Source: an uncultured Campylobacteraceae bacterium
GTDB taxonomy: Bacteria > Campylobacterota > Campylobacteria > Campylobacterales > Arcobacteraceae
Assembly: GCA_937138295.1 (NCBI GenBank)
Contig: CAKZOX010000058.1
Coordinates: forward strand, 1-47,713
Reading direction: 5' to 3'
Length of the DNA: 47,713 nucleotides
Of the stretch, positions 4,797 to 42,633 are shown in pieces. The notes below the pieces were generated by a model that was not told where the DNA came from, searched no databases, and saw only the letters and a program-made list of their open reading frames with translations. The position numbers and the translations under genes were made by a program. The stretch's first letter is position 1, and each line of letters starts with the position of its first letter.

Positions 4797-4887
4797 GACT
4801 AAATCTAATATATTATATAGGCAAAAAAGAGTTTTTAAGCTATTAGATTTAGTCGTCTATACAATATACTTAAAGACTCTTTTTTGC
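4797..4887 (+). ncRNA. Interleaved (A-B-T-A'-B'-T') leader RNA upstream of HNH gene 4902
   Basis: Pairing segments, in order: A 4797-4810, B 4809-4820, T 4821-4839, A' 4841-4854, B' 4857-4868, T' 4869-4887. A/A' is 14 bp perfect, B/B' 11 of 12, and T/T' 19 bp with one G-U. T/T' contains A6/T6 tracts and so can act as a bidirectional terminator. Its loop is complementary to the RNA 5' end in circularly permuted order. T' ends 14 nt before the start codon at 4902. Confidence 0.8.
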
Positions 4888-4901: not shown

Positions 4902-5597
4902 ATGAAATATACAAGAAAATCAATTAAATGATATGAATGACTATATTCAGTAGATACTCAATGAAATATTTATATTGATAGAGTTCCCAAAAAAAATAAA
5001 CAACAAAAACCCAAGAAAAGTAAAAACCCAGAATTTGAAAAAAATACAAATCCAAAAAAAATAAATCTCCAAAGTGAGAGAAAAATGAAAAATTGAAAAA
5101 ACTGATGAGGTTATAATTTTGTATGATTTTCAAGAGAATGAAAATCTAAATATTTTTTGGTTCACAGATTAGTTGCCGATGCTTTTTTATATAATAAAGA
5201 AAATAAAACACAAATTAATCATATAAATTGAGTAAAAACTGATAATAGAGTTGAAAATTTAGAGTGGTGTACTTCAAGCGAGAATATAAAACACGCAATA
5301 AAGACCTGATTAATTAAGCATAAAAAATGAAAAGATAGTCCATTGTATTGAAGAACTCCAAAGAATATTCTCAAGTGAAAAGATCATCCATATTTTTGAA
5401 AGAGATGAAAAGAAATGCATAATGCTAGAAAGGTAGATCAATATGATTTAGATTGAAATTTTATAAAAACTTGGGATTCTATAATAGATATTAAAAGACA
5501 TTGATTAACAAAGAGTAATAGACTGTCCGAATGTTGTAAATATAAAAATCAAACTTGTGCTGGTTTTTATTGGAGATACTTCTCGGAAAAATTTTAA
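4902..5597 (+). CDS. NUMOD4/HNH homing endonuclease
   Basis: The product has 231 residues. Residues 1-20 carry a NUMOD4-like start (KSIKGYEGLYSVDTQGNIY). A Lys/Asn-rich insertion follows, then LVHRLVADAFL, NHINGVKTDNRVENLEWCT (the HNH core, with TGA as the motif Gly) and SSENIKHA. A C-terminal NUMOD1-like region (VDQYDLDGNFIKTWDSI) follows. These are hallmarks of free-standing phage homing endonucleases that nick or cut unoccupied sites. The insertion at about residues 35-60 contains a segment also found, in another reading frame, in the gene at 4057. A 36-bp duplication begins at its 3' end. Confidence 0.9.
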
Positions 5598-8969: not shown

Positions 8970-9164
8970 ATGTGAAATAAGATATGAAAATGAATACCTT
9001 TAAGAGAACAGTTTAAAAAAACTTCTAGATTAGAATTTGGTTTATATATAACTTGAAATAAATCTGCAACTATTAGACAATGGTTTTGGAGAAATTGAAA
9101 AGATATTTTAAATAATGAACACTTTGACGAATATTTAAATAAATTTAAAAAAGATGAAAAATAA
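8970..9164 (+). CDS. Small helix-turn-helix-like protein, 64 aa
   Basis: The product has 64 residues. PLREQFKKTSRLEFG, then ITGNKSATIRQWFWRNGKDIL, reads like a compact helix-turn-helix (specificity phrase NKSATIRQW). As first gene behind a promoter with a palindromic operator it may be autoregulatory (inference). The stop overlaps the next start at 9154. Confidence 0.5.
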
Positions 9165-33484: not shown

Positions 33485-33757
33485 ATGAAAAATACTAGAC
33501 ATCATTTATACCCTAGGCATTTATGAGGTTGTAATACTTGAAATAACTTAATTTTTTTAAAAGAAAATGTACATCAAGCATTGCATCTTATTTTAGATAA
33601 AGACCACAAAGCACAAGCACCTAGAGAACAGATAATAACTTTATTTAATATATTATCTCCTGCTTTAACTTCTGAATTTAAGAGTGATGTTTATAAGATA
33701 TTATTAGAAACTGATAATAAATATTATTATAAAGACTGAATTTATTTACCTAAATAA
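33485..33757 (+). CDS. HNH-like small protein, 90 aa
   Basis: RHHLYPRHLGGCNTGNNLIF followed by LKENVHQALHLIL has the His-His, Asn and His spacing of a reduced HNH nuclease (HHxYPxHxGG, NNLIFL, HQALHLIL). No zinc cysteines seen. It may be a homing nuclease or a decayed one. Confidence 0.55.
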
Positions 33758-33762
33758 AAACT

Positions 33763-33792
33763 ATGAATAAATTATTCCAATGGTATAAATAA
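33763..33792 (+). CDS. Possible 9-codon ORF
   Basis: MNKLFQWYK after a good AATAAAAACT leader; possibly the truncated start of a lost gene. Very low confidence as a product. Confidence 0.15.
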   Translation: MNKLFQWYK

Positions 33793-33793
33793 T

Positions 33794-33821
33794 TTGTTAT
33801 TATATAAAAATTAAGTATAAT
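33794..33821 (+). promoter_or_regulatory. Promoter TTGTTA-N16-TATAAT of HNH leader 2
   Basis: TTGTTA 33794-33799, TATAAT 33816-33821. Predicted start G33828 is the first base of segment A. Confidence 0.75.
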
Positions 33822-33827
33822 CTAAAA

Positions 33828-33912
33828 GCATAGAATTAAATGATTTGCTATTATAGCTTTTAGTTGAGTAGGTTTCTATGCAAATCAGCCTATTCTACTA
33901 AGAGCTTTAATT
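33828..33912 (+). ncRNA. Interleaved (A-B-T-A'-B'-T') leader RNA upstream of HNH gene 33921
   Basis: A GCATAGAA (33828-33835), linker TTAAA, B TGATTTGC (33841-33848), T 33855-33872, A' TTCTATGC (33874-33881), B' GCAAATCA (33880-33887), T' 33889-33906. T/T' is 18 bp with two G-U pairs and one mismatch. A' and B' overlap by GC in the T loop. T' ends 14 nt before the ATG. A frame without ATG (33835-33942) also crosses here and is probably chance. Confidence 0.75.
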
Positions 33913-33920
33913 TTTATAAT

Positions 33921-34493
33921 ATGGAAATATGGAAAGATATAACTTGATATGAGTGATTATATCAAATCAGCAATTTTTGAAGAGTTAAAAGTTTAGAAAG
34001 ATATATCATTAATTCATTATGAAGAAAATGCTTTATTAAAGAAAGAATATTGAGAATAACAATTAATAAATGATACGAATGTATTAATTTTACTATTAAT
34101 AATAAAACTCATAGTAAAAAAATACATAGATTAGTTGCTAAATCTTTTATTATTAATCCTGAAAATAAGTCAGATGTAAATCATATAAACTGAATAAAGA
34201 CAGATAATAGAGTTGAAAATTTAGAGTGGGTTACAAAATCAGAAAATGAATTACATAAATATAATATTTTGTGATATAAAAATTTTTTTCAAACTAATCA
34301 CCCTTTTAAAGGTAAGTTTTGAAAAGATAATCATTTAAGTAAAAAAGTATGATTATATAAAAATTGAAAATTAATACATATATATTATTGAATTAGGGAA
34401 GCTGTTAGAGAAAGTAACTTTTGTGAGAATTCTATAATAAAAAGTTTAAAAAAATGAATTTTAATTAAAGGTTGCAAATGGAATTATTTATAA
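33921..34493 (+). CDS. NUMOD4/HNH homing endonuclease
   Basis: The product has 190 residues. NUMOD4 start EIWKDITGYEGLYQISNFGR, HNH core KKIHRLVAKSF, then NHINGIKTDNRVENLEWVT and SENELHKY, and a C-terminal NUMOD1-like segment (GIREAVRESNFCENSIIKSL). The central GIKTDNRVENLEW stretch is almost identical to that of the gene at 4902, so the two are close paralogs. It is preceded by the interleaved leader RNA. Confidence 0.9.
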
Positions 34494-34512
34494 TATTTAT
34501 TAAATAAAAACT

Positions 34513-35205
34513 ATGAATTTTAAGTGGTACAATCAAAATTTAGAAAGATATAGTAGGTCGGGTTGTTCAGTCTATACCTTATTTAATATTATACAGCTAC
34601 AATGGGGTATTAAATATACTAATGATTTTATTATAGAAACTTTAAAAATAGCAGAAAAAGATAAAGCTTTTTTTGAAACTTGGTGAGCTTACTTTGATAT
34701 AATATATAATTGGTTTTCTACTAAAATATTTGAATACACTTGACTAAAAACTAAAATAAGAGTTGTTAATATCAATAATGATGACTTTGAAGATTTACTT
34801 GAAAAAGGTTACTACTTCTGATTATGATTATTAAATGCTTGACTATGGTATAGAAAAGCAAGAGAAGATTGAATAATAGATGAAAAAGATTTTATTATTG
34901 ATAAAGGTTCTACATTCTGACATAATCATACATATTGAAAACTAGGTAATAAATATGCTATATTTGATAGCCTATGAAGTGTTTGAGCTAAACCTATCTA
35001 TATGGATTTAAAAACTCTTAGAGAGCTAGTTAATAAGTGAATTTACTATGCTAATGCAAGAACAATAGTATTAGAAGACCAAAGATTAGATAATCGGTTA
35101 AGATTTTTTAAGACTTGATGAGTAGTAAAAGATATTACTAAAGAAAATAAAGTAAATCAAAAAGCTATTGAAAGAGCTTTGAAATTAAGAGTATTCCATA
35201 AATAA
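34513..35205 (+). CDS. Candidate C39-like cysteine peptidase (possible endolysin)
   Basis: The product has 230 residues. SGCSVYTLFNIIQ places Cys18 at the start of a helix, followed much later by FGHNHTYGKLGNKYAIFDSLG with His139 and Asp152. The order Cys, His, Asp and the G-C-x-x-x-x-x-x-N helix resemble papain-like C39/CA-clan peptidases. It lies beside fibre and lysis-region genes and could cleave peptidoglycan cross-links. Alternatives: a head-maturation or structural peptidase. No signal peptide. Confidence 0.5.
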
Positions 35206-35206
35206 C

Positions 35207-35234
35207 TTGCAATAATAATTAAAAGTTATATAAT
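35207..35234 (+). promoter_or_regulatory. Promoter TTGCAA-N16-TATAAT of HNH leader 3
   Basis: TTGCAA 35207-35212 (just after a stop codon) and TATAAT 35229-35234. Predicted start 35241-35242 is the beginning of segment A. Confidence 0.85.
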
Positions 35235-35240
35235 AGATAG

Positions 35241-35332
35241 AGCTAAAGGAATTAAATATCTCGCTCTCAATTTAAAACTCATATTTATCGGTTTCCTTTA
35301 GCGAGATAGCCGATAAATATGAGTTTTTTAAT
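35241..35332 (+). ncRNA. Interleaved (A-B-T-A'-B'-T') leader RNA upstream of HNH gene 35342
   Basis: A GCTAAAGGAA (35242-35251), linker TTAAA, B TATCTCGCT (35257-35265), T 35275-35291, A' TTCCTTTAGC (35293-35302), B' AGCGAGATA (35300-35308), T' 35310-35326. T/T' is 17 bp perfect and followed by TTT, a strong terminator. Its 18-nt loop contains A'B', the reverse complement of the 5' segment in permuted order. T' ends 15 nt before the start codon. Confidence 0.85.
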
Positions 35333-35341
35333 AATATAATT

Positions 35342-35917
35342 ATGAAAAAATTAATTATCAGACAATGAGAAATATATAATATGGTTAAAATTATTAATGA
35401 AGTTGAACCTAAATGAAGCCAAAGAATATTTCAGTGTCAATGTGAATGTTGAAATATAAAAAATATACAATTATGAAATTTAAGAAATTGAAAAACTAAA
35501 AGTTGTGGATGTTTTCAGTGAAAAACACACGGTATGGAATCAAGCAGAATTTATTACATTTGGCATAGTATGAAACAAAGATGTAAAAATATTAATAATA
35601 TTGGTTATAGTAATTATGGTTGAAGATGAATTACTTATGATAAAAAATGGGAAAATTTTGTATGATTTTATGAAGATATGAAAGACTGATATGAAGAACA
35701 TTTAACAATAGATAGGATAGATAGCAACTGAAATTATTCTAAAGAAAATTGTAAATGGGCAACAAGTAAAGAACAAAATAGAAATAAAAGAAATAATATA
35801 TTATTTAAATGAAAATGTTTATCTGAATGGAGAGAATTTTTATGAATAACAAAGGGAAGATTTGATTATTTAAGATATAATAGAAAATTATCTCTAGAAG
35901 AAATTTTCTATATTTAA
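35342..35917 (+). CDS. AP2/HNH-type homing endonuclease
   Basis: The product has 191 residues. FQCQCECGNIKNIQLGNLRN then SCGCFQGKTHG forms a zinc-binding N-terminus. HGMESSRIYYIWHSMKQRC, NYGGRGITYDKKWENFVGF and LTIDRIDSNGNYSKENCKWA, then EQNRNKR, are the signature of phage homing nucleases of the AP2/HNH (I-TevI-like finger) group. It is a different family from the NUMOD4 genes but shares the same type of leader. Confidence 0.85.
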
Positions 35918-41800: not shown

Positions 41801-41828
41801 TTGACATTATCTTTTTTTTAAATAAGAT
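41801..41828 (+). promoter_or_regulatory. Promoter TTGACA-N16-TAAGAT
   Basis: TTGACA 41801-41806, TAAGAT 41823-41828. Confidence 0.6.
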
Positions 41829-41834
41829 TTAATC

Positions 41835-41920
41835 AAATAAAACTTGTATTAAGGCTACAAGATAACTGGAAATATAAGTTTTTCCCCCTATCTAGCCTTA
41901 ATAGATAGGGGGTTTTATTT
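41835..41920 (+). ncRNA. Kissing-loop non-coding RNA
   Basis: Hairpin 1 is CTTGTA/TACAAG (41843-41848, 41856-41861) with loop TTAAGGC. Hairpin 2 is the strong terminator CCCCCTATCTA/TAGATAGGGGG (41884-41912) with loop GCCTTAA. The loops are perfectly complementary over all 7 nt, and the complementarity extends to 11 nt counting closing pairs. About 85 nt in all. Confidence 0.7.
41884..41920 (+). terminator. Strong intrinsic terminator
   Basis: An 11-bp GC-rich perfect stem with a 7-nt loop, followed by TTTTATTTT; the strongest in the window. Confidence 0.95.
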
Positions 41921-41929
41921 TAATGAATG

Positions 41930-42330
41930 AACGTAATATATAATAATTGCAATGATATAATTGCTGAAAAGGTTAAACTGATTATATGTTGCGTCTATTT
42001 ATTAAAATAGTAGCTACTAGGTATAAACTAGAGGGTATACTCCAAATAACTTACACTGAGGAGATTAAATATACTGACAAGTGCTAATTCAAGTCGCAGG
42101 AGTGTAAGGCTAGTCAACGATAAGACATACGAAATGTTTATTAAATCTAGTTAAGTATTGATGTTTTATAGAGATATAAACAAGCAATAAGTTATTTAAG
42201 ATAACTGAGTGGTAATGGCTAATTTATAGTTTCCTAGCTTAGAGTTGTTTCTTATAGAGGTTTGTTATTCTAGGCAGGATTTAACTATATCACTCTAGAA
42301 ACCGAAAGTATTTTATAAATTACTATAACT
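41930..42330 (+). ncRNA. Candidate structured RNA upstream of the HNH gene
   Basis: CTCC (42040-42043) pairs with GGAG (42060-42063), and its loop contains CTTACACT, which pairs perfectly with AGTGTAAG (42101-42108): a pseudoknot. Further hairpins include CTAG/CTAG around 42017-42031, AGTTAT/ATAACT near 42190-42206 and TTCTAG/CTAGAA near 42268-42299. A group I intron would explain the HNH pairing, but I cannot find its core P7 elements. Confidence 0.4.
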
Positions 42331-42633
42331 ATGTATAAAAATTACTTACAATCTAGTAAATGGAAAGATAAAAGAGAGCTAGTATTTGAATCTAAATGAA
42401 AGTGTTGTGAAAAATGCTGAATTGATAAATACTTAAATATACATCATTGAAGCTATAAAAAGAAATATAAAGAACCCATAACACACTTATTTATTTTATG
42501 TTACTGATGTCATAAAGACTTTCATACTAAATATAAGATGTGAAAGAGTATGTTAAATAAAACACTAAACTTTATACATTGAAAATGATGGAGGAAAATA
42601 AAACCAGACTTATCATTATTATATCCTATTTAG
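42331..42633 (+). CDS. HNH endonuclease, 100 aa
   Basis: YLQSSKWKDKRELVFESKGK, CCEKCGIDKYLNIHHGSYKK and LFILCYGCHKDFHTKYK form a small zinc-binding HNH nuclease (CxxC, HHG, CxxCHxDFH). This type is common as free-standing or intron-borne homing nucleases. It directly follows the structured segment and precedes the Dam gene. Confidence 0.85.

Follow-up and report, generated by a model that had tools for sequence, protein, structure and literature searches.

The CI immunity RNA of phage P4 is a processed RNA, the complementary part of which lies in a loop called seqB, and it has a second target, seqC, located downstream. As far as the portion of the literature used here describes it, this RNA is derived from an operon leader, pairs with that same leader and terminates transcription before the replication genes (PMC4825925). 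The leaders reported in this work share with P4 CI an RNA segment that is complementary to the upstream leader of the same operon. By position, some of them precede replication genes, while the leader of primary interest (W33) precedes an HNH gene. They differ from P4 CI in that some 60 nt at most contain both the 5' end and the loop complementary to it, and in that processing would be unnecessary because the hairpin carries its own U-tail. The likeness is one of organisation.

In pT181-type attenuators, the antisense RNA is a separate transcript from the opposite strand. RNA–RNA pairing chooses between a terminator and read-through in those systems, as proposed here, whereas target and effector would here be two parts of one RNA. 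Engineered pT181 sets, in the partial account consulted, gave orthogonal regulators when pairing segments were swapped on one frame (PMC3753616). For homing endonucleases, leader hairpins or internal terminators limit expression in T4 (I-TevI-III, segB, mobE, segF, seg43), and a very stable predicted hairpin is found directly upstream of the RBS of seg43 of Aeromonas phage 25 (PMC2988022, in part). These structures sequester the RBS, adjoin it upstream or sit inside the ORF, and complementarity between a 5' end and a loop is unmentioned in the portion of that source used here (PMC2988022). No description of complementarity between the 5' end and the terminator loop of phage leaders was found in the literature searched, from which most subscription papers were absent, and the terms HNH, noncoding, terminator and intron were all absent from a paper on Gracilibacteria phages (PMC10746230).

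The window, which is the whole stretch of 47,713 nt that was analysed, is a 47.7-kb phage contig of 24% GC whose genes are broken under translation table 11 and open under table 25 (TGA = glycine). Code 25 is the code of Gracilibacteria and Absconditabacteria. The bin that contains the window (G000) comprises 2.8 Mb in 222 contigs with a contamination of 6.33, and because it may be mixed, the host of the phage is uncertain. The coordinates of the features are collected in Table 1.

Table 1. Parts of the four leader RNAs of the window and the genes adjoining two of them.
Feature	Position	Strand	Details
W33 promoter-like site	33794..33821	+	TTGTTA-16-TATAAT; 33794 is the start of the -35 hexamer
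W33 pairing segment A	33828..33835	+	GCATAGAA; close to the predicted RNA 5' end
W33 linker	33836..33840	+	TTAAA; core common to W35 and L117
W33 pairing segment B	33841..33848	+	TGATTTGC
W33 T hairpin	33850..33911	+	23 pairs with two mismatches; terminator-like, then T-run
W33 loop A'/B'	33874..33887	+	TTCTATGCAAATCA; complementary to A and B
NUMOD4 + HNH_3 homing endonuclease gene	33921..34493	+	genetic code 25
W35 promoter-like site	35207..35234	+	TTGCAA-16-TATAAT; 35207 is the start of the -35 hexamer
W35 pairing segments A and B	35242..35265	+	A GCTAAAGGAA, 35242-35251; B TATCTCGCT, 35257-35265
W35 T hairpin	35274..35327	+	20 pairs; loop TTCCTTTAGCGAGATA, 35293-35308; then T-run
HNH endonuclease gene after W35	35342..35917	+	phrog_374, 2.1e-58; no Pfam match
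Third leader, W49	4797..4885	+	A GACTAAATCTAATA, 4797-4810; T arms 4823-4839 / 4869-4885; A' in loop
Fourth RNA	41801..41921	+	TTGACA-16-TAAGAT (by eye); 5' hairpin CTTGT(ATTAAGGCT)ACAAG, 41843-41861; second hairpin; T-run

The analysis of W33 upheld the observation that two segments, A and B, are both complementary to the loop of the downstream hairpin; a promoter-like site precedes them. The coordinates confirm the predicted order of A, TTAAA, B and T, with A' (33874-33881) and B' (33880-33887) sharing the GC at 33880-33881, and the loop complements B and A joined end to end, its central GC serving both. The U-tail of the hairpin, the place of A at the predicted RNA 5' end, the presence of the design in W49 and at 41801-41921, and its occurrence before replication genes elsewhere go beyond the original prediction. 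The two innermost pairs of the T hairpin involve bases adjoining and at the ends of A'/B'. The original prediction that T' ends 14 nt before the ATG at 33921 holds if the stem stops at AGAGCT (33906), whereas only 9 nt are left when the AU-rich outer pairs are included. The 190-aa gene product, with TGA read as Gly, carries NUMOD4 (PF07463, 2.6e-16) and HNH_3 (PF13392, 5.9e-11).

W35 presents the order of parts of W33 with different letters, and W49 stands ahead of an HNH_3 gene at 4902-5597, the protein of which found no relative when used in a search. The HNH gene at 9154 in the window has no leader of this design. The fourth RNA is the simplest form of the design, in which the loop of the 5' hairpin faces the loop of the U-tailed hairpin, CCCCCTATCTA(GCCTTAA)TAGATAGGGGG, at 41884-41912. 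No long ORF follows it directly, and an HNH-like gene is found at 42331 (phrog_119, 7.1e-9). The best weak Rfam matches near 41852 were PyrG_leader (28.4 bits against a gathering threshold of 65, E 0.18) and BTnc231 (E 0.25). The ∼400 nt between this RNA and the HNH-like gene (41922-42330) hold no long ORF and gave no Rfam match up to E 1; a group I intron suspected at 42.0-42.3 kb was rejected, as Rfam gave it no support.

The stems with T-runs in the window comprise 23, 20 and 17 pairs with long loops and are AU-rich, as are several of the T stems, and a consensus terminator scan, which considers loops of 3-8 nt only, reported none. Promoter-like matches in the W33/W35 region numbered 22 against 24.4 expected, i.e., there was no overall excess. 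Duplex energies of the cognate pairs in the window ranged from -11.0 to -14.9 kcal/mol and all non-cognate pairs were weaker (-3.1 to -9.4), with the reservation that the W49 loop piece was off-register and took in part of T'.

When the upstream stretch was resampled 50,000 times under a first-order Markov model, 7-mers matching both loop halves arose in seven resamplings for W33 and in 70 for W35, and a single 8-mer match to the loop was obtained 757 times (W33) and 1627 times (W35). The linker was also claimed to be common to W33 and the leader at 35207, and to suggest a fixed framework with variable pairing segments. The 9-mer GAATTAAAT occurs seven times in the window against 5.0 +/- 2.1 expected; as this count is at chance level, the 9-mer by itself is no evidence and was rejected as a signature. 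The part of the claim that stands is the core TTAAA(T), which, together with the GC overlap of A' and B', is found at the same place in W33, W35 and L117, the last being the leader of another code-25 phage. The core was seen only in these three, and the other leader classes inspected have different linkers.

The comparison of W33 with L117 showed 67% identity over 135 nt. The W33 stretch reads AGC[ATAGAA]TTAAATGATTTGC and that of L117 AGC[TTGTAG]TTAAATAGATTGC, each being complementary to its own loop, so that AGC...TTAAAT...GC is kept while the loops and their partners differ and are matched within each RNA. The same pattern of a kept frame and a changed pair was observed for L121/L162, where a 12-nt pair is exchanged (TGCAATGTTAAA, GCTAATTGATTA) in a common frame, for L009/L142, where the frame has TATGAAAACATTTAAAAAATCC in common and the L142 pair includes one G-U, and for L141/L143. 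These four cases support the predicted fixed framework with variable pairing segments, and complementarity and joint replacement of the paired segments are shown. Across the four homologous pairs, which are those with delimitable segments (L003/L270 and L156/L175 were left out), identity was 40/94 in the paired segments, 78/127 in the T arms and 155/226 elsewhere. The contrast stems from the other three pairs, as W33/L117 alone exhibited no extra variability (paired segments 17/32, T arms 21/41). In L115/L122 and L141/L172, which are closer homologues, the pair is retained and A is unchanged. Furthermore, L160, L179, L449 and L435 all carry AGTAGTGC or at least its core, GTAGTGC, in different frames and before different downstream genes, which is unexpected under strong diversification; either shared specificity or common descent may lie behind it.

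The extent of the design was determined on leaders drawn from viral contigs and bin G000. The anchors comprised 262 of 328 result rows, the omitted ones being mainly repeated contigs, and 11 others, and the alignment offset served to estimate the start codons. Once truncated leaders and near-identical copies had been taken out, 198 were retained, a count that is without the true L004 leader. Hairpins were then picked without regard to complementarity, and the longest exact match between each loop and its own upstream 75 nt was recorded. A U-tailed hairpin was present in 58 of the 198 non-redundant HNH-anchored leaders. Own-loop matches of at least 7 nt were obtained in 27/58, against 285/3306 swapped pairings, and matches of at least 9 nt in 11/58, against 23/3306; the observed sum was reached in none of 10,000 permutations. 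Some of the weaker matches of at least 7 nt (L045, L106) look random. The feature is absent from most HNH leaders, as 140/198 have no qualifying hairpin and 31/58 no match of at least 7 nt. Three leaders (L270, L162 and L447) were identified by visual inspection alone, the last having a loop match and no U-run.

A position control returned matches at 39/175 anchors against 13/568 control windows elsewhere; it covers the first 175 anchors with redundant copies kept, one anchor (W34) being a non-HNH gene, and anchors with too short an upstream stretch are unscored yet counted in the 175. When the retrieved loci were scanned blind on both strands (4.35 Mb with repeats), 51 matches were obtained, of which 28 were located directly before HNH genes (by eye), two before replication genes and one at window position 41848. 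Among the remaining 20 are hairpins already counted that were read again from the opposite strand and, probably, chance matches. A promoter-like motif ends 0-20 nt upstream of the paired segment in 23/27 leaders, compared with 24/162 control offsets, the motif being a permissive one (TATAAT-like or TAnnTTTG) and the distance being taken from B for W33 and L117. TAnnTTTG is the promoter motif of Bacteroidota. The paired segment is therefore predicted to sit at the 5' end of the RNA.

Two earlier scans were dropped and replaced by these blind tests. The exact-arm hairpin scan gave about equal numbers of matches in simulated sequence and in the window and missed W33, while the -10-anchored scan was blind to Bacteroidota-type promoters. 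Framework-pattern searches of viral contigs retrieved, in the first round (99 stretches), the L009 leader again, in L435, along with two AT-rich matches, and in the second, three stretches that were all on contigs already in the set. The genome-contig scan gave three relatives, none of which had the feature by eye, and leader DNA matched named phages over short stretches only.

The design is not restricted to HNH genes. The viral contig L435 has the design twice, each time with its own pair (minus strand, 1087 and 5504): one leader is of the L009 type and precedes an HNH gene, and the other carries AGTAGTGC and stands before a gene with matches to replication-initiation and primosomal families. 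In the Cellulophaga phages phi19:1 and phi10:1, a leader with an identical pair stands before genes leading to a primosomal-like protein and a primase/helicase. Ten records held a relative of the phi19:1 primosomal-like protein, and five phages were inspected, namely these two, Nekkels_1, morran9-1 and Arctus_1. Nekkels_1, also a Cellulophaga phage, has a different, weak pair (7 nt, two of them G/C) at the homologous place, where the protein is 53% identical. Flavobacterium phage morran9-1 displayed a strong two-hairpin version before replication genes, and Leeuwenhoekiella phage Arctus_1 gave no match in the scan. The HNH gene of the cultured Flavobacterium phage FCV-1 is likewise preceded by the design. 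Among the HNH loci of named phages, the U-tailed scan detected it before the HNH gene at 2/13 (L449, L458).

No Rfam family reached its gathering threshold in the window, W33 and W35 included, and the matches on 33760-35360 were weak, mainly of microRNA type and far below gathering. Among the HNH leaders, L047 passes the threshold of int-alpA RNA (RF02996; 37.5 against 35.8 bits), with P1 formed by the predicted 5' end. The int-alpA consensus ends in a U-run, whereas the aligned tail of L047 has none, and P1 of int-alpA is nested while the W33 pairing is interleaved with T. There was no int-alpA match in the window or in the 19 other loci scanned beside L047, nor any up to E 10 in 33760-35360. 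By eye, the HNH leaders L103 and L104 resemble int-alpA/C4-type RNAs, with a closing stem around two hairpins and then a U-run. Two further candidates were rejected. No group I intron carrying an HNH gene was found in the window at gathering or, up to E 10, in 33760-35360, and a HEARO/OMEGA guide RNA with IscB is at odds with a W33 protein of 190 aa that has NUMOD4 and HNH_3 only, and with the lack of an Rfam match.

Given that P4 CI is the best-fitting known system and that L047 passes the int-alpA threshold, we favour an autogenous, element-specific transcription attenuator that acts like the P4 CI immunity RNA, and assign this reading a probability of roughly 45%. The promoter, the terminator and the short RNA are predictions made from the sequence, from which we infer the transcription start, termination and the trans step. 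The RNA would start at about A, and most transcripts would end at the T-run, giving a short RNA of ∼90-110 nt with an exposed loop. In a new transcript, pairing of A/B with its own emerging loop would hinder the T hairpin and allow the polymerase to enter the gene, while capture of A/B by the loop of an earlier short RNA would let the T hairpin form and turn the gene off. The gene would be on at entry into a naive cell and shut down later. The pairing would set who silences whom, with A and A' changing together on a kept scaffold, and because these changes are in concert between elements, the elements within one phage would be expected to avoid cross-silencing. The leader may thus let each element recognise and silence itself.

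The full hairpin and cis pairing of the loop are hardly compatible in W33, where a single nucleotide separates B from the base of the 23-pair stem, or in L023, where a 30-pair stem directly adjoins A; there, either the two are alternative folds of one RNA or the pairing joins two RNAs. That the two halves of the pair are replaced jointly speaks for recognition between molecules. A trans step is not needed, since by simple reach the linker is long enough for cis pairing in 24/27 leaders. A purely cis-acting attenuator, in which the A/B–loop pairing serves as an antiterminator or folding timer that sets low read-through with no trans RNA, is a serious though rather unlikely alternative. A lies upstream of A' and could pair first, and L133, L174, morran9-1 and the window at 41843-41912 present a two-hairpin kissing geometry. 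In W33, the 5' CTAAAAGC (33822-33829) is exactly complementary to GCTTTTAG in the T arm (33857-33864), a possible antiterminator particular to this leader. Such an attenuator alone leaves the joint replacement of pairs on kept scaffolds unexplained, and its pairing would be sterically awkward in W33, L117, L136 and L023.

It is improbable that the leader mainly controls RNA stability or translation, whereby the hairpin and paired 5' end would protect the mRNA or restrain ribosome loading in the manner of the T4 RBS-sequestering hairpins. T4 intron and free-standing endonucleases do have leader hairpins according to the part of the source used (PMC2988022), and T' ends 6-30 nt before the gene start in 24/27 leaders; yet the start codon lies outside T, a T-run follows the stem, and the T4 cases come with no mention of 5'-end/loop complementarity in that same part. 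A guide-like RNA, with the loop as a short guide for the HNH protein and A/B mimicking the DNA target, would account for the variable segment within an otherwise conserved scaffold of a predicted non-coding RNA that lies directly upstream of an HNH gene. We consider it very improbable, as the joined target TGATTTGCATAGAA is exact only in the loop itself across bin G000 (the true target phage may be outside the bin), the window holds no other match within 1 mismatch, and replication genes, too, have leaders of this design. Fortuitous complementarity in AT-rich DNA, to which the 24% GC, the chance-level count of GAATTAAAT and the random-looking matches of L045 and L106 would lend themselves, is practically negligible in view of the swap and permutation tests, the position controls and the recurrence in related leaders with co-replaced segments.

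It is quite possible, if short of probable, that these leaders belong to a class of RNA that is widespread in phages and undescribed in the literature searched, and in which recognition depends on a variable pair, the 5' end and the terminator loop, that co-evolves. They would be natural orthogonal 'self/non-self' attenuators, comparable to incompatibility groups, that govern homing endonucleases and replication operons, and could therefore decide which co-infecting element is silenced. If the trans step of the favoured attenuator is true, orthogonal RNA attenuators that follow a simple pairing code would exist in phages as a large natural family. This would further explain the joint silence of several selfish endonuclease genes in one phage, and would represent an RNA form of superinfection immunity in phages of Bacteroidota and candidate phyla.

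Two observations concern the contig and the surroundings of W33. The contig ends (1-228 and 47427-47713) both encode the same short GNARVSGNA-type repeats, and the contig may therefore be a circle or have its break within a repeat gene. The W33 leader and its HNH gene lie between two direct copies of a 17-bp repeat, AAATAAAAACTATGAAT, at 33752-33768 and 34502-34518. Both copies include an ATG, and the first opens a 9-codon remnant, MNKLFQWYK, that is similar to MNFKWYNQN, with which the gene at 34513 begins. The cassette of leader and HNH gene looks as if it had been inserted at the start of gene 34513, supplying it with a new start.
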